A DNA stretch of 39,852 nucleotides from Candidatus Hadarchaeum sp. (GTDB taxonomy: Archaea; Hadarchaeota; Hadarchaeia; Hadarchaeales; Hadarchaeaceae), in the NCBI GenBank assembly GCA_020725895.1, contig DYTO01000007.1:1-39852 (forward strand), written 5' to 3'. This document shows, piece after piece, positions 24,465 through 35,010 of the stretch. The notes beneath the pieces are model-generated. The model searched no databases, was not told the DNA's origin, and saw nothing but the letters and a program-made list of their open reading frames with translations. A program made the translations under genes and the position numbers. The stretch's first letter is position 1; every line of letters starts with the position of its first letter.

Positions 24465-24489
24465 TGGCGAAATGCCGGGCGGTGGGAAA

Positions 24490-25509
24490 ATGGACACCGT
24501 GAAAATTGGCAAAAAAGTTGTTGGTAGGAATAATCCGGTCTGTATAGTGGCAGAGATCGCGTCGGCCCACCAGGGGAATCCCGAGACCTGCAAGGAATTG
24601 GTGCGGGAGGTTGCTCGGGCGGGCGCTGACGCCGTGAAGTTCCAAAAATTCAGCGCCGAAGAGCTGGTCGTTTCCGGCCCCAAACAGGAACATTTCAAGA
24701 AGATAGAGCTGGCGGACAGCGAATGGCGCGAGATAATCTCGATCGCGAGAAAATCGGGCCTGGAAGTGATGGCAGACGTTTTCGACGAGAAAAGCTGCGA
24801 CCTCATGGATGAACTCGGTGTGTCGGCGTTCAAGATACACTCGACGGATCTGTCGAACCCTTACATGCTGGCGCACGTCGCTGGAAAAAAGAAGCCGGTT
24901 CTTCTGGGGGTCGGTGGCGGCAAGCCAGAGGAAATCAAAGAGGCGATTGAAATCGTGAAAAAAAACGGGTGTAAGGATATTATGCTAGTCCACGGATTTC
25001 AGGCCTACCCGACGAAACTCGAAGATACAAATTTTGGATTGATTTCTGCATTGAAAGAGAGATTCGGGTTGAATGTAGGTTACCACGATCATGTCGACGC
25101 CGAAAGCGACCTGGCCTTGTTCATGCCCTGCGTCTCGGTAGCTTATGGGGCCTCCTTGGTGGAGAAGCACGTCATACTCAGCAGAAAGGAAAAGGGGCTG
25201 GACTACCAATCGGCGCTCACGCCAGAAGAATTCAAGAGGCTGATCAAGAACATCAGAGAATTTGAAAGAGCGATTGGCCACGGGAAATTCGAATTCTCGG
25301 ATGCCGAGAAGAAGTACCGTGAAGAGGTCAGGAAAAACATCGTCGCAAGGAGAGACATCCCTGCCGGCACCGTGATAACGCTTGAGATGCTGGCTTTCAA
25401 GAGATCGAAGCCCGGGTTGTCGCCTCTTGAAGCGCCGAAAGTCGTGGGCAAAAAAACCAAAGTTAAAATTCTGAAAGATGAAGTCATTAGCCGGGAAAAA
25501 TTGACATGA
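24490..25509 (+). CDS. neuB: NeuB-family nonulosonic acid synthase, copy 2
   Basis: 339 aa from the ATG at 24490, just after GGTGGG; an upstream in-frame ATG at 24472 would add MPGGGK, which is the translated ribosome site. Family blocks: CIVAEIASAHQGNP, AGADAVKFQKFS, SLVEKHVILSR, and a C-terminal SAF domain NIVARRDIPAGTVITLE. Two usual motifs differ: the barrel loop is GYHDHVDAESD where the other copies have GYSGHES or GYSDHTMG, and the first strand ends IASAHQG rather than xGxNHxG. The altered loop suggests a different acceptor sugar. Overlaps the next gene by ATGA. Confidence 0.88.
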   Translation: MDTVKIGKKVVGRNNPVCIVAEIASAHQGNPETCKELVREVARAGADAVKFQKFSAEELVVSGPKQEHFKKIELADSEWREIISIARKSGLEVMADVFDEKSCDLMDELGVSAFKIHSTDLSNPYMLAHVAGKKKPVLLGVGGGKPEEIKEAIEIVKKNGCKDIMLVHGFQAYPTKLEDTNFGLISALKERFGLNVGYHDHVDAESDLALFMPCVSVAYGASLVEKHVILSRKEKGLDYQSALTPEEFKRLIKNIREFERAIGHGKFEFSDAEKKYREEVRKNIVARRDIPAGTVITLEMLAFKRSKPGLSPLEAPKVVGKKTKVKILKDEVISREKLT

Positions 25510-26270
25510 AAACAATTGTTCTCATCGCTGTGCGAATGAAATCGACGAGACTGCCGAAAAAGGCCCTTGCCGAGATAGAAGGGAAGCCTTTGATAAACCA
25601 CCTCATCGAGAGGCTCAAGACTGCCAAAGTTCCGGCATCCCTGGTCCTTTGCACATCCACCCACCAAGACGACTCTGTGCTTGTTGAAATCGCGAAGAAA
25701 GCGGGCGTGAAATGGTTCGGGGGGAGCGAGGATGACGTTCTTGAGAGGTTCATCAGGGCGGCCGAGAGCGAGGGGGCAGACAATATCGTCCGCGCGACAG
25801 GGGACAACCCGCTCACCGACCCGGAGTACATCGACAAGGCGATAACCAAGCATGTGGCCGCGAAAGCCGACTACACTTTCGTCGAGGGGCTTCCAAAGGG
25901 GACTGAGTGCGAGGTGATCTCGGTCAAGGCATTGAAAAAATGCAAGAGCTCGGCCGACAACCCGGAAATGAGCGAGTACATGACTCTTTACTTCAAGAAT
26001 TCGGGGCTCTTCAAAACGGAGAAGATAACCGCGGCGCCCGAAGTCAATCGCCCGCAGTATCGGCTGACCGTGGACGCCCCCGAAGACTTGAAACTGGTGC
26101 GCGAGATCTACGGCCGCCTCTACAGGGGGGGCAGGGTCTTCCCTCTCTCCGATGTCGTGAAGTTCCTGGACGATAACCCGAAACTCGGCGAGATGAACGC
26201 AAACATAAAGCCGAAAGAAGTAAAAATGCAATTCGTCAAGGGGAAGATGAGAATCGTGGAGGGAAAATGA
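25506..26270 (+). CDS. SpsF-like cytidylyltransferase
   Basis: 254 aa. IAVRMKSTRLPKKAL (7-21) is the SpsF/KdsB-type nucleotide-binding signature, followed by LCTSTHQDDS, GGSEDDVLERF and RATGDNPLTDPE with the metal aspartate. The family makes CMP-activated acidic sugars. It directly follows neuB copy 2 with a 4-base overlap, so the pair probably makes and activates the same acid. Confidence 0.87.
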   Translation: MKTIVLIAVRMKSTRLPKKALAEIEGKPLINHLIERLKTAKVPASLVLCTSTHQDDSVLVEIAKKAGVKWFGGSEDDVLERFIRAAESEGADNIVRATGDNPLTDPEYIDKAITKHVAAKADYTFVEGLPKGTECEVISVKALKKCKSSADNPEMSEYMTLYFKNSGLFKTEKITAAPEVNRPQYRLTVDAPEDLKLVREIYGRLYRGGRVFPLSDVVKFLDDNPKLGEMNANIKPKEVKMQFVKGKMRIVEGK

Positions 26271-27659
26271 ATGCCTAAGGTAAGCGTGATTGTCACCGCA
26301 CACAATTATGGGAAATATCTTAGGACTTGCCTGGACAGCGCTCTGAACCAGTCCTACAAGGATTTCGAGGTCATCGTCGTTGACGACGGCTCGACGGACG
26401 ACACGGCGAAGATCCTGAAAGAATACGGCGACAAGATAAGGGTCGTCAGGCTCAGCGGAGTCGGTCTGGCGAGGGCATGCAACAGCGGCGTTGCGCTCGC
26501 GAAGGGCGAATACATCGTGAGGCTGGACGCCGACGATTACTTTGACGAGAACATCCTGCTTATCGAGACGACGTTCCTTGACAACCACCCGGACGTCGAC
26601 CTTGTATACCCCGATTATTTCTTCATAAGCGAGGGCGGCGAAGTCCTCGAACACGTGAGACAGATGAAGGTCGGGGAGGAACTGCGCCTTCTGTACAGGA
26701 ACCCGCTTGCCGCAGGGGCGATGTTCAGGAAGACAAAGTTCGACGACATATGCGGATACACCGAAAAGCCTGGATACACGGAAGACTACGACTTCTGGAT
26801 AAGGTTCGCGACGAAATACAAGGTCGCCAACATAAACCTCCCCCTCATGTACTACAGGCGGCACGGCGGCAGCATGTCCGCGAACAGGCACTGGAAGACG
26901 GGGGCGAGGAGGCTGGTGAAGAAGGAATTCGTGGAGACCCGGCTTAAAAACGTCCTGAAGAAAACGAAGATCCTCGGGATAATCCCCGCTCGCGGCGAGT
27001 CCAGGATCGATGGAGGGAAGCTGGCGCTCAGGGACCTCAACGGCAAGTCTCTGATCGCCTACACCATTGAAGAGGCGCTCAAGTGCAAACTTCTGGACCG
27101 CGTGATAGTCTCAACCGAGGACAGGGAAATCGCGGACGTCGCGAAGAAATACGGCGCCGAAGTCCCGTTCTTGCGCCCGAAGGAGTTGACGGGGCCTGAG
27201 ATCCCGGTAGAGAGCGTCGTCCTGCACGCGCTGGAATTTCTCGCCAAAGAAAAATACGAGCCGGACATAATCGCGATACTCCACGTCGTCTCGCCCCTCA
27301 AGAATGAGGAGCACATCACCGAGGCAATCCATACGATGCTGATATTCAACACTGACACCGTGATAAGCGCTACCCCGGACAAGTCGTTCCACTGGAGGCC
27401 CGACACGCACGGCCTTTCGCCGCTCTTCGAGAAGAGGCTCCTGATGTACGAGAGGGAGATGCTATACAGGGAGAACGGCGCGATATATCTTGTGAAGAGG
27501 GATGTCCTGGAGAAGAAGAAAAACGTGATTGGAAAAACTGTCGCACACATCGAAATGCTTCCGGAGGAATCAATCCACATAGACTCGGAGCATGACTTTT
27601 GGCTGGCTGAACAAATCCTGAAAAGAAAACCGAAGAAGGGGGCCTCGAAACGAAGATAG
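26271..27659 (+). CDS. GT2 glycosyltransferase - CMP-sugar synthetase fusion
   Basis: 462 aa. Residues 1 to about 225 are a family 2 glycosyltransferase: VSVIVTAHNYGKYLRTCLD, VVDDGSTDDTAKIL, the DXD-type RLDADDYF, and TEDYDFWIRF. From about 240 a NeuA-type cytidylyltransferase starts: ILGIIPARGESRIDGGK, VIVSTEDREIA, EVPFLRPKE, ending SIHIDSEHDFWLAE. The signature has RGESRIDGGK where NeuA usually has GGSKxxPxKN, so nucleotide binding may be altered. One chain could both activate a nonulosonic acid and transfer a sugar. The ATG directly abuts the spsF-like stop, and neuB copy 3 follows with overlap. Confidence 0.87.
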   Translation: MPKVSVIVTAHNYGKYLRTCLDSALNQSYKDFEVIVVDDGSTDDTAKILKEYGDKIRVVRLSGVGLARACNSGVALAKGEYIVRLDADDYFDENILLIETTFLDNHPDVDLVYPDYFFISEGGEVLEHVRQMKVGEELRLLYRNPLAAGAMFRKTKFDDICGYTEKPGYTEDYDFWIRFATKYKVANINLPLMYYRRHGGSMSANRHWKTGARRLVKKEFVETRLKNVLKKTKILGIIPARGESRIDGGKLALRDLNGKSLIAYTIEEALKCKLLDRVIVSTEDREIADVAKKYGAEVPFLRPKELTGPEIPVESVVLHALEFLAKEKYEPDIIAILHVVSPLKNEEHITEAIHTMLIFNTDTVISATPDKSFHWRPDTHGLSPLFEKRLLMYEREMLYRENGAIYLVKRDVLEKKKNVIGKTVAHIEMLPEESIHIDSEHDFWLAEQILKRKPKKGASKRR

Positions 27660-28651
27660 GGAACGTCGACCTCGACAAAAAGGTCATGGTCGTCGCGGAA
27701 GTCGGCGGGAACCACGGCGGGGACTTCGAACTCGCGAGGAAATACGTGAAAGTGGTTGCGAGGACTGGGGCGGACGCCGTCAAGTTCCAGATGATAAGCG
27801 CCGACAAGTTCGTGGTCGCGGACGCGCCCGCCGTCCCGCCGGTGAAAATGACGCAGAGGGAGTGGTTCAAGAGCCTTGAGTTCACGCCGGAGCAGTGGAC
27901 GCAACTCGCGGATGACGCCAGGAAAAACGGGATAATGTTCTTCGCGAGCGTCTTCGACACTGACAGCGCGGACCTTCTCGACAAGCTTTCGCCCGGTTTC
28001 AAGATTGCCTCTGGGGATTTCACGAACCTTCCCCTCATAAGGCACGTCGTCAAGAAGAGGAAGCCGATTTTCATCTCTACTGGCGGCACCAAATTGGAGG
28101 AGATAGACCGCGTTGTCAATGAAGTTCCGAAGAAATCTTTGGCCCTGATGCACTGCATAAGCAGTTACCCGTCGACGGAGTCTGAAGCCCATCTCCTTAC
28201 AATCCCATTCCTGAAGGAGAGGTACGGGGTAACCGTCGGCTACTCTGACCACACGATGGGGATACTGGCCTCCATAGCCGCCGCGTCACTGGGTGCGCGC
28301 GTTATTGAAAAACACTTCATTTTGGACAGGCGCCAGAAGATCGGCGACTCGATACTCTCCGCCGAGCCTCAGGAGATGAAGGATCTTGTAGGGTATGTCG
28401 GACGCGTTGAAAAAATGCTTAAGCTCAGAAAGGGGCCGATCGAGGCCGAGAAAAAATTCATCCCCTCGCTGAGAAGGAGCCTGGCCGCTGCAACCGACAT
28501 GAAGCGCGGCACAGTCGTCACAGCAGGCAAACTCATCCCGCTGAGGCCGGCTAGGGGGATATCGCCACTTGAAATAGACGAGATAGTAGGGATGAAAGCC
28601 AGGCGAGACATCAAGAAAGGCGAGATAATCAAGAAGAGCGACTTGAGCTAG
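27650..28651 (+). CDS. neuB: NeuB-family nonulosonic acid synthase, copy 3 (start uncertain)
   Basis: 321 aa from the first ATG (27686). The frame continues upstream as TKIGNVDLDKK, which matches the usual NeuB beginning MKIG...; its first codon, at 27650, is ACG, seven bases after GGGGG. I give this longer start as the more complete domain. Family blocks: VVAEVGGNHGGD, GADAVKFQMIS, GYSDHTMG, GARVIEKHFIL and a C-terminal SAF domain RRSLAAATDMKRGTVVT. The 3' end overlaps the convergent radical SAM gene by 23 bases. Together with the NeuA half of the fusion just upstream it forms a third synthase-activator pair. Confidence 0.87.
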   Translation, partial: TKIGNVDLDKKVMVVAEVGGNHGGDFELARKYVKVVARTGADAVKFQMISADKFVVADAPAVPPVKMTQREWFKSLEFTPEQWTQLADDARKNGIMFFASVFDTDSADLLDKLSPGFKIASGDFTNLPLIRHVVKKRKPIFISTGGTKLEEIDRVVNEVPKKSLALMHCISSYPSTESEAHLLTIPFLKERYGVTVGYSDHTMGILASIAAASLGARVIEKHFILDRRQKIGDSILSAEPQEMKDLVGYVGRVEKMLKLRKGPIEAEKKFIPSLRRSLAAATDMKRGTVVTAGKLIPLRPARGISPLEIDEIVGMKARRDIKKGEIIKKSDLS

Positions 28652-29720
28652 CCGATATCTTGTAAGCCTTCAAAATCTCGTCCAGCTCCTCGTCGAACTG
28701 CGGAGTGTTGACCTCGCAGCGTGCGCATATCGGAACCGCTTCGAGCCTTCCCCTCTTGTGCAGCATCCTCACGAAATTGTATTTTTCCCCGTTCCACATT
28801 TCTCTCAGCGTCTCCTTCTTGGCGTTGCCCAGCGGATATTCACCGTGCCAGTCACCGCAGCACATGAAAGTCTCTCCGGTCCACAAGACGACCATCCTCT
28901 GCCAGATCTGGTGGCATGGGAAATGCTCGAACTCCAGGCCTTTCACAACTGGCTCGCCGATGGTGTGGGGCTGCGGGCACGGGAAGCTCTCCGCGATCTT
29001 GTCCAGTTTCAGGTAAGGCTCTCGCCTCACTGTCACGGCGACGCGATTGACCACGTCGACCCACATCTTGATGAACTTCTCGATCTCGTGCTTGTTCTGC
29101 TCCATCTTGACCATCTGCACGCGGACGGAGGGGCGCTTAAGGCCCATTGAGTTGCGGATTTCCACGAGATTCTTGATGTTGCCGACCACCCTCTCGAAAT
29201 TCGCGCCCGTCCTGATCTTCTCGTATGTCTCCTTGGTTGCGCCGTCCACTGAGAACAGAATCCTGTCCAGGCCTGCTTTCAGGAGTTCTTCAGAAATCTT
29301 TTCTGTCAGCGGCATCCCGTTCGTGTTGAACTGCACCTCCAGGATCCCCATGTCCTTGGCATACTTGACGAGCTTCGGCAGGTCGGGGTGCAGTAGCGGC
29401 TCGCCGCGGAAGTTCAGCTTCAGGGAGGGCAGCTTGTGGTCCGCCGCCTCGTCAATCACTTTCTTGTAAAGCCCGAAATCTATGAAGCCGATTTCCTCCT
29501 CCATGAAATTCCTCGTGCACATCACGCACTTCAGGTTGCAGGCGTTCGTCGACTCGACGTCGAGGTGGAGCGGGAAATCCCCCAAGGTGTAGTTCTGTGG
29601 GTATTCGAACCATTTCCTGCGGTACTCCTTGTACTCGGGGCCGAACGTCTCGTCTGCGTTGCCCGACCTGTCCGTCCCGAGTATCTCGTAGAAGCCTGCG
29701 TTGACGACTATCCTCTTCAT
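28629..29720 (-). CDS. radical SAM / SPASM-domain protein
   Basis: 363 aa. HLDVESTNACNLKCVMCTRN (CX3CX2C) near residue 53-72, NFRGEPLLHPDLPKL for SAM binding, and a C-terminal SPASM region with CCGDWHGEYPLGN and a final CARCEVN. The pattern is the same as the gene at 2432-3544, and the two may be distant paralogues. Substrate unknown; peptide, lipid or sugar modification are all possible. The ATG at 29720 has a TATA-like box 26 bases upstream. Confidence 0.87.
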   Translation of the reverse strand: MKRIVVNAGFYEILGTDRSGNADETFGPEYKEYRRKWFEYPQNYTLGDFPLHLDVESTNACNLKCVMCTRNFMEEEIGFIDFGLYKKVIDEAADHKLPSLKLNFRGEPLLHPDLPKLVKYAKDMGILEVQFNTNGMPLTEKISEELLKAGLDRILFSVDGATKETYEKIRTGANFERVVGNIKNLVEIRNSMGLKRPSVRVQMVKMEQNKHEIEKFIKMWVDVVNRVAVTVRREPYLKLDKIAESFPCPQPHTIGEPVVKGLEFEHFPCHQIWQRMVVLWTGETFMCCGDWHGEYPLGNAKKETLREMWNGEKYNFVRMLHKRGRLEAVPICARCEVNTPQFDEELDEILKAYKISASSSRSS

Positions 29721-29740
29721 CGAATTAAATCGGCGCGCGT

Positions 29741-29749
29741 GCTAATAAA
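29741..29749 (-). promoter_or_regulatory. TATA-like box of radical SAM gene 28629-29720
   Basis: TTTATTAGC on the minus strand, centred about 25 bases before the ATG; predicts a leaderless transcript. Confidence 0.5.
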
Positions 29750-29781
29750 ATCTGTATGTGTTGCTGTCTTCTTGACAAACA

Positions 29782-30537
29782 TTAAAATCTTTTCTTGATT
29801 GCCACTAAAATCGCGAGACCGATTAAAGAGATATTGCGACAATGACGTAAACTCCTGACAAGTCGGATTGATTTGAAGAATCATCTGCGACCGTGCTATC
29901 CGATCCATGATTTTCATTGTAACCTGAAGCAGTTGACTTCAGAACGTTCACCCAGTTCTCACCGTCAGTTGTGTACCACGTGTCGTTCACTAGGCCCGTG
30001 GTGGCATTTCCACCAGCAATTCAGATCTTGTTGTCGAAAACTGTCGAGGCGAGAGATTCTCTTGCCGGCCAATTTGCGTCGAACACCACCCAATTCTCCA
30101 TGTCGTTCGAGTACCACACTCTGTTCGATTTCGACTCATTGAAAATGCCGGATTCTTTGTTGTCCAGACCTGAAGTGTCCCCGTTATCTCCGCCGATCAC
30201 ATAAACTCCTCCCCCAAACGCTTCCGATGCAAAATATGTTTTCGCCATCTGTGGAGTACCAGATGTCGTTCAGCAAAGGCACTTGGGCTGGGCTACCTCC
30301 GGTTATCCACATCTTGCCGTTGAATGTCGTCAATGAGTGAGTGTACCTTTGTTTCCAGAGGCCCGAATCATTCCTCGTAATTGTGCCGATCCAGTTCTCA
30401 AAAATAGCATAATTTCCTTACCAAGAGGGCGTCTCGTCTCCGCCTTGCGCGCCAAGCGGAGAAATCAATGTTATCATCAATGCCAACGCCGCCAGGCAGC
30501 ACGTCGCAATTTTCACCATGCTAAAATTCTTTTTCAT
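29782..30537 (-). pseudogene. decayed gene for a secreted, membrane-anchored Kelch-like beta-propeller protein
   Basis: No intact reading frame, but one gene can be followed across frames. It starts at the ATG at 30537 with a signal peptide (basic MKKNFSMVK, then a hydrophobic run with CCLAALALMITLISPLG). Then come Kelch/galactose-oxidase-like blades: FNGKMWITGG..NDIWYSTDGEN, GGVYVIGGDN..VWYSNDMENW, and FDNKI*IAGGN..DTWYTTDGENW. It ends in a membrane helix (VYVIVAIS plus LIGLAILVAIKKRF). Lesions: TAA at 30418-30420, a frameshift with apparent loss of sequence near 30236-30246, TGA replacing the expected Trp codon at 30021-30023, and a one-base frameshift near 29825. Surface or adhesion-type role inferred. 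This explains the gene-poor stretch 29721-30550. Confidence 0.8.
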
Positions 30538-30550
30538 ATCATATGGGCGT

Positions 30551-31705
30551 TCATATCACAGAGTTATAAACATTCTCAAGCTTGTCGACGACATTCTCCC
30601 AGTCCCATTCGCGCGCGAAATTCAACGAGTTCTCAGACATCTTCTTCCTGAGATTTTCATCGGAGAGCAGCTGTTTGATTCTCTCAGCAATCGCCTCTGG
30701 TTTGACCTCCGTGAAGAAACCGTTCTCGCCCTGGACGATCAGCCTCTTGTCTATGCCGAGCGGGTGATCGACGGCTATCGCTGGCAGGCCGCAGGCGTTT
30801 GCCTCCTGTGTCACTATGCTCGCCCCTCCCTCCTGAATCGATGGTATCACGAAAACTTTCGAAGATTTCATCAGCGAAATCACGTCGTCGTGGTCCTCGA
30901 CGAAGCCGTGGAACTTTACGTTGTCCTGGACTCCCAGTTCTTTCGCCAGAGTCTCAAGCGAGCTTTGCTCCGGGCCGCTGCCGATGACGCTGACTCTCAG
31001 GCGCGGGAAATCTTTCTTCAATTCCGCCGCGGCCCTGATCAGTAAATCGACGTTCTTCGGCTTGATCAGCCTTCCAAGATAAACAACGTCTGAAGTCTCC
31101 TTCGATGGGTTGATTTTTTGAACGTGGGTGTAATCGACGCCGTTCGGGACCACCGAGATATTCTTCGAATCGACGCCCAGCTTCATCAGGTCGTCCCTCG
31201 TCTGGTCTGAAACAGCTATGACGCGGTCGGCCAACCCAAGCAGAATCATCTTCTCCATCAGCCTGCCGAACACACCCGGCGAGCCCAGGTACTCCTGCCA
31301 GTATCCGCGCCAGACCTCGTGCCATGTGATGATCAGCGGCGAGCGCTTGAAAACAGAGCTCAACTTGGCGGGAAAGCTGTGCAGGTACGGTGCCTGGAAG
31401 CAATCAATGACGTCGAAGCGCTTGCTTGAAATCTTCGGGAAGACCTTGCTGGCAAAAATCGCCGCCGACTTTATCGAGCGCCTCCCCTGTGAGTAAAGCT
31501 GGGCACCCTCCGAAACGCCGTGGATCTTCACCCCTTCCAGCTCGATGTCGCCTTTCTCCTTCCACCAGTGCATCCCGTATATGTGGACCTCGTGCCCGCG
31601 CTTGACGAGCCTGCGCGACACCTCGTACATCCTCCTTTCCGCCCCGCCCTTGATGAAGGGGTAGACCGCGTCGTGAACGTATGCTATTTTCATTTTCATG
31701 CCCAT
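30551..31705 (-). CDS. family 4 glycosyltransferase (GT4)
   Basis: 384 aa from the ATG at 31705; two further ATGs within 12 bases (31699, 31693) are equally possible because the transcript probably starts at the codon. GT-B fold: N-terminal KIAYVHDAVYPFIKGGAERRM with the glycine-rich acceptor loop, and donor-site blocks VVYLGRLIKPKN, VIPSIQEGGASIVTQEA (E-x7-E) and GLPAIAVD. GT4 enzymes use NDP-sugars with retention of configuration. No membrane segment, so it acts on the cytoplasmic face on lipid-linked glycan. Confidence 0.92.
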   Translation of the reverse strand: MGMKMKIAYVHDAVYPFIKGGAERRMYEVSRRLVKRGHEVHIYGMHWWKEKGDIELEGVKIHGVSEGAQLYSQGRRSIKSAAIFASKVFPKISSKRFDVIDCFQAPYLHSFPAKLSSVFKRSPLIITWHEVWRGYWQEYLGSPGVFGRLMEKMILLGLADRVIAVSDQTRDDLMKLGVDSKNISVVPNGVDYTHVQKINPSKETSDVVYLGRLIKPKNVDLLIRAAAELKKDFPRLRVSVIGSGPEQSSLETLAKELGVQDNVKFHGFVEDHDDVISLMKSSKVFVIPSIQEGGASIVTQEANACGLPAIAVDHPLGIDKRLIVQGENGFFTEVKPEAIAERIKQLLSDENLRKKMSENSLNFAREWDWENVVDKLENVYNSVI

Positions 31706-34029: not shown

Positions 34030-35010
34030 CTATTTTTTGTGGCGACCTATTTTGGTCTTCAGTTCGTTGTATTCTTTCATGAAAAGATTTATTGTTGGTT
34101 TTAAATCATGATTTTTTTCGTACGCTCGCAATGCGGCATAGTATTCTCCTCTATTTTTGAAGTCGATGTTCATTGGAGGCAAGTTATGTTTAATCAAGAT
34201 ATTGTTCAGCAATACCCTTCCTACTCTTCCATTGCCGTCCTTGAAGGGGTGGATATTCTCAAACTGATTGTGAACAACCGCACCAAGAATCAATCCTGGA
34301 TATTTGTTTTCATTATTTCCATACCAGCCCATCAATTCACGCAAAAGATGGTTTATTCTTTGCTGCGGCGCTCCTTCGTGAACCACATTCCCCATGCCGT
34401 CAATGACAACCATTTCTTCACCTTTCTTTCTCAATTGCCCGGCGAATGGTTTGGAGTTCTTGAAGACTATCTTGTGTATCTTTTTTATCAGCTCCAATGA
34501 GATGTGTTCTTTCGCGCGCCGTATGTATGAAATTGCTTCGTCGACGCCAAACGCTTCTGCAATGTCCTCCTTCGATTTTTCTGGCCATTTGTCTTTTTCC
34601 AGCAGTTCTTTCACTTCTTTCAGGTTTAATCTGCTTCCTTCGATGGCGTTCGTGTTGTATGTGAATAATTTTGAGAATTCTTTCCAATCGGCTTCGGACA
34701 AATGGCTTATTCTCAGAGATATTTTGGTTTCAAGAGTTTTTATTGACTCTATTTCTTCTTCTGAAAGCTCTTCCAGAATCGGATCCATTATTATTTGGTA
34801 TTTGTGGATTTCTTCAATTATTCGTTTCTCGGCAATTTTTTTCTTTTTTTCCAGCATTGATGGGCTCAAATCCTGACCCAGATATTCCCTGAATTTGTGA
34901 ACGTTGGGGCCCTCCCGATAGGAATGCGCCAGAAAATATTTTGTCCGCCTCCCATCTTTTCTTTTCTCAAGGTACATTATTCTATTTTGGGTGTCTACAT
35001 ATTTAAACAT
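34030..35010 (-). CDS. Fic-domain protein (putative AMP-transferase), class II
   Basis: 326 aa. The Fic motif HPFKDGNGRVGR at 254-265 is complete, with the catalytic His, the phosphate-binding Asp/Gly/Asn and the final Arg. TNAIEG at 120-125, before the Fic core, matches the inhibitory (S/T)xxxE(G/N) helix of class II Fic proteins, so activity is probably self-restrained. Such enzymes attach AMP or another nucleotide-derived group to protein side chains. The N-terminal 70 residues are basic. Codon use is much richer in A and T than in the flanking genes, and it sits alone between the glycan locus and the tRNA: likely acquired. No partner antitoxin gene is visible. Confidence 0.9.
   Translation of the reverse strand: MFKYVDTQNRIMYLEKRKDGRRTKYFLAHSYREGPNVHKFREYLGQDLSPSMLEKKKKIAEKRIIEEIHKYQIIMDPILEELSEEEIESIKTLETKISLRISHLSEADWKEFSKLFTYNTNAIEGSRLNLKEVKELLEKDKWPEKSKEDIAEAFGVDEAISYIRRAKEHISLELIKKIHKIVFKNSKPFAGQLRKKGEEMVVIDGMGNVVHEGAPQQRINHLLRELMGWYGNNENKYPGLILGAVVHNQFENIHPFKDGNGRVGRVLLNNILIKHNLPPMNIDFKNRGEYYAALRAYEKNHDLKPTINLFMKEYNELKTKIGRHKK

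Follow-up and report, generated by a model that had tools for sequence, protein, structure and literature searches.

What occupies the gap of ~830 bases (29721-30550) that separates a glycosyltransferase gene from a radical SAM/SPASM gene in a Hadarchaeota glycan locus? The locus lies in the window, a 39,852-nucleotide stretch of contig DYTO01000007.1 belonging to a Hadarchaeota metagenome-assembled genome (1.12 Mb, 58 contigs). From the sequence alone, the original prediction had placed a broken Kelch-like surface protein gene here. When the frames were re-read, its signal peptide, three propeller-like blades and C-terminal membrane anchor could all be traced on the minus strand across four lesions, whose predicted coordinates (30418, 30240, 30021 and 29825) were all right. 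The relic spans 756 bases (30537..29782) and begins 13 bases past the glycosyltransferase gene. The features, from upstream to downstream, are as follows.

30551..31705, minus strand: upstream neighbour, an intact family-4 glycosyltransferase gene whose B75_G9 orthologue lies next to the intact kelch gene
30421..30537, minus strand: relic start with the signal peptide (MKKNFSMVKIATCCLAALALMITLISPLGA...), 39 codons in the first frame from the ATG at 30537
30418..30420, minus strand: lesion 1, a TAA within the frame opened by the ATG
30239..30417, minus strand: blade 1 (ENW...FNGKMWITGG...NDIWYSTDGE) in the first frame, from the blade comparison
30224..30248, minus strand: lesion 2, a frame change near 30240 with ~13 blade residues missing
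29919..30233, minus strand: blades 2 and 3, in the second frame
30021..30023, minus strand: lesion 3, an in-frame TGA in the second frame, where relatives have a blade tryptophan
29823..29834, minus strand: lesion 4, a frame change inside the transmembrane segment, the second frame ending in TAA at 29825-29823
29782..29845, minus strand: C-terminal transmembrane anchor and basic tail (..ISLIGLAILVAIKKRF) in the first frame
28629..29720, minus strand: downstream neighbour, an intact radical SAM/SPASM protein gene, 75% identical to its B75_G9 orthologue

At lesion 2, the blade text of the first frame runs down to GEN at ~30238 and that of the second frame takes over from ~30233; since ~13 blade residues are also missing there, we read this lesion as a deletion plus a frame change. 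At the 3′ end, the first frame carries the transmembrane segment and its KKRF tail on to a TAA at 29784-29782. The three blades recur at the DNA level with a period of 138-145 bases. Closure of a propeller needs at least four blades in one frame, whereas the relic has three, split over two frames with stops, and any surviving translation product would be at most a 39-residue peptide consisting mainly of the signal sequence. The neighbouring genes are intact, in contrast to these 756 bases with their two stops and two frame changes.

The kelch assignment was examined against chance. Without any stitching, the first and second frames scored 110 and 163, respectively, against the intact kelch protein of the syntenic locus described below, whereas the maximum among 300 Markov shuffles was 55, the third minus-strand frame scored 39 and the plus-strand frames reached no more than 46. 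The stitched text matched Pfam Kelch_1 with an E-value of 9.7e-8, above the curated cut-off, and its three blades of ~45-50 residues carry the GG plus spaced aromatic motif of the kelch-repeat family. In the reverse direction, a genome search with the intact kelch protein recovered both parts of the relic (E-values of 1.5e-12, through the TGA, and 4.1e-7). Judged by these sequence comparisons, the kelch content of the relic is not due to chance.

The original prediction had named a comparison with related genomes for an intact copy as the check to make, and such a copy was found at the orthologous locus of Hadesarchaea archaeon B75_G9, a member of the same family but of another genus. This gene (QMWE01000006.1, 833-2383) encodes a 516-residue protein with six blades, a following domain of ~120 residues and a C-terminal anchor, and it begins within four bases after its own glycosyltransferase gene, whose product shares 64% identity with its counterpart in the window. 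The gene order in B75_G9 is glycosyltransferase, kelch, cytidylyltransferase, radical-SAM, NeuB and GT2/cytidylyltransferase fusion; the sialic-acid-type cytidylyltransferase gene between kelch and radical-SAM is absent from that spot in the window, and the order is otherwise the same. Both the sequence of the B75_G9 protein and its single-sequence structural model, the latter of modest confidence (mean pLDDT 52), find matches among the kelch propellers of the Protein Data Bank. The relic has roughly half the length of the B75_G9 copy; three blades and the ~120-residue domain are absent, whether lost here or never present, the comparison being with one intact relative.

The genome of the window also encodes a second, intact kelch surface protein of 951 residues (on contig C34, G000:C34). 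Taking all blades together, the relic scores about equally against this paralogue and against the syntenic B75_G9 gene, so its orthology to the latter rests on synteny and on the last blade: blade 3 of the relic is closest to the last blade of the B75_G9 protein (131 vs 115 for the runner-up). Kelch proteins recognisably of this type are patchily distributed, occurring in 2 of the 27 genomes of the order (those of the window and B75_G9). None of the closely related genomes has the gene, the one known intact syntenic copy being that from the other genus, and no relative of the relic was found at the DNA level in 60 related genomes. G006 and G019, which carry the glycosyltransferase, have different genes beside it, with no kelch relic found; UWMA-0211 has the radical-SAM and cytidylyltransferase genes, and its contig ends before the kelch slot; and in an Aenigmatarchaeota locus the radical-SAM gene stands in another context with no kelch gene. 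A literature search on kelch genes in Hadarchaeota returned nothing.

The surroundings proved to be a glycan locus, as had been proposed, and one of nonulosonic-acid type: it contains two NeuB-type synthases, cytidylyltransferases, a DegT aminotransferase, a Gfo/Idh oxidoreductase, a UDP-sugar dehydrogenase, an epimerase and a flippase. On the plus strand, 24472-25509, 25506-26270, 26271-27659 and 27686-28651 encode two different NeuB-family synthases, a separate cytidylyltransferase and a fused glycosyltransferase-2/cytidylyltransferase, perhaps representing two nonulosonic-acid-type pathways side by side in one archaeal locus. Further along, a Fic-domain protein gene (34030-35010, minus strand) has 39% G+C (45% at third positions) among genes of 55-61% and was probably acquired recently. 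A promoter and terminator scan, which used a bacterial consensus, gave nothing above chance.

At third codon positions, the relic has a G+C content of 0.50-0.61, whereas the glycan genes next to it have 0.74-0.84 and the genome's intact kelch paralogue has 0.68. The low value in the relic is as expected if selection on codons had ended, and it could also have been inherited from a source of lower G+C; in B75_G9, the kelch gene has 0.495, and its neighbours likewise. If the two in-frame stops are treated as neutral hits, the divergence since inactivation comes to roughly 0.06 neutral substitutions per site (range 0.007-0.21). Thus, of the recent relaxation of selection suggested originally, loss under relaxed selection stands as the best reading, while "recent" is only loosely constrained by this rough figure.

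Phase variation typically targets surface proteins encoded in glycan loci, and a phase-variable or recoded gene would still yield the full protein through programmed frameshifting, stop read-through or reversible switching. Here, however, a full protein would require passage through two stops as well as two frame changes, a blade lacks ~13 residues, and the intact relative in B75_G9 needs no recoding. Phase variation is not supported, since the relic contains no slippage-prone repeat (no tandem repeat and no homopolymer longer than 5), and the sole inverted repeat in a search for an invertible segment had arms of 10 bases and extended into the adjacent gene. With four lesions of different kinds and no such repeat, the phase change raised by the original prediction was abandoned. 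Recoding is likewise unlikely because TGA is the commonest stop here, ending 18 of 31 genes, and the TGA of the relic stands at a tryptophan rather than a cysteine position. TGA as a sense codon was considered as well and rejected, given its use as the commonest stop and the frame changes that would remain. We therefore regard a gene that is switched or recoded as extremely improbable. Two main rivals of the pseudogene reading remain: an error of assembly, and a duplicated or transferred gene that failed. The gene might be intact in the organism and its lesions artefacts of, for example, strain or repeat mixing, as kelch blades are repeats and the genome is a metagenome assembly in 58 contigs; yet four separate lesions of different kinds fall in one gene and none in its neighbours, and the third-position composition of the relic is shifted as in decay, which makes such an error very unlikely. 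Alternatively, the relic may stem from the C34 kelch gene by duplication, or from a foreign kelch gene, and never have worked after arriving here. The similar scores against the C34 paralogue and a third-position composition unlike that of the neighbours would fit this origin, which has been proposed for many prokaryotic pseudogenes (PMC522871). Against it, the relic sits in the same slot as the intact gene of the relative, with flanks conserved on both sides, and has its own signal peptide and anchor without the Ig-like domains of the C34 protein; we consider this origin quite unlikely.

The sequence at lesion 2 bears on the possibility of misassembly from both sides. Positions 30224-30248 form an exact 25-base match to one other place in the genome (G000:C38:9846-9870), where ~2e-6 would be expected by chance, and this word occurs nowhere else in the family. 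The match, far beyond chance, could hint at a bad join, but its flanks do not continue into each other, differing on both sides between the relic and C38. Its partner lies in an unrelated gene for a 211-residue protein and is read in the same frame (GENIFCIG). A repair scar and a bad assembly join are each a possible explanation of the match; that lesion 2 arose by a template switch copying a short stretch from the unrelated C38 gene, leaving a break-repair scar in an archaeon, is a tentative idea that we think unlikely. As a separate observation, open reading frames 3-275 and 1365-1562 in the segment G000:C38:8800-10900 share their last 24 residues (GGPRGAHVDLGFDSLFQDVKNSES), which marks a duplication of ~75 bases or more.

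The pseudogene reading is based on homology in two frames, on four inactivating lesions and on the gene that a relative has intact in this slot. The Kelch_1 match, the scores above shuffles and the intact syntenic copy bear out the broken Kelch-like surface protein gene first proposed, and the relic is very probably a pseudogene: a decayed orthologue, now shortened, of the gene for a secreted kelch propeller with six blades and a membrane anchor, encoded in a Hadarchaeota glycan locus. Because a relative in the same family keeps an intact copy in the same slot, the case is one of ordinary, well-supported gene decay; inactivating lesions here and an intact gene at the orthologous place in B75_G9 would make it a unitary pseudogene. 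With its signal peptide and C-terminal anchor, the ancestral protein would have sat on the cell surface, where its propeller may have bound something or had a part in displaying or modifying the glycan; once dispensable, the gene would have gathered stops, indels and deletions. Partial redundancy is a plausible reason for the loss, since the genome keeps the intact 951-residue kelch/Ig-like protein. The relic accounts for an otherwise empty gap, documents that a Hadarchaeota glycan locus of sialic-acid type has lost a kelch surface protein and warns annotators against calling its fragments as small genes. Beyond this, it is routine gene decay whose intact counterpart is now identified.

Compared with known systems, the relic is closest to the B75_G9 gene, with which it shares the slot, signal peptide, kelch blades, C-terminal anchor and matching last blade; that gene, however, is open over 516 codons with six blades and the ~120-residue domain, whereas the relic is broken by four lesions, carries three blades and lacks that domain. 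The C34 protein has kelch blades of the same kind, a signal peptide and a C-terminal membrane anchor, but it is intact, encoded elsewhere in the genome and carries the extra Ig-like (Big) domains. Archaeal surface-layer proteins, such as those of the ARMAN-like archaeon Mia14 (PMC5498576), also include secreted kelch-propeller proteins assigned to the cell surface; these are intact and fused to PKD/CARDB modules, in contrast to the broken relic. A frame transition of this kind without a conserved site or repeat would fall, by the features of PMC3711429, into the class of pseudogenes, and the relic resembles prokaryotic pseudogenes in general (PMC522871; frame-transition classes in PMC3711429) in having several stops and frameshifts and an intact homologue elsewhere.
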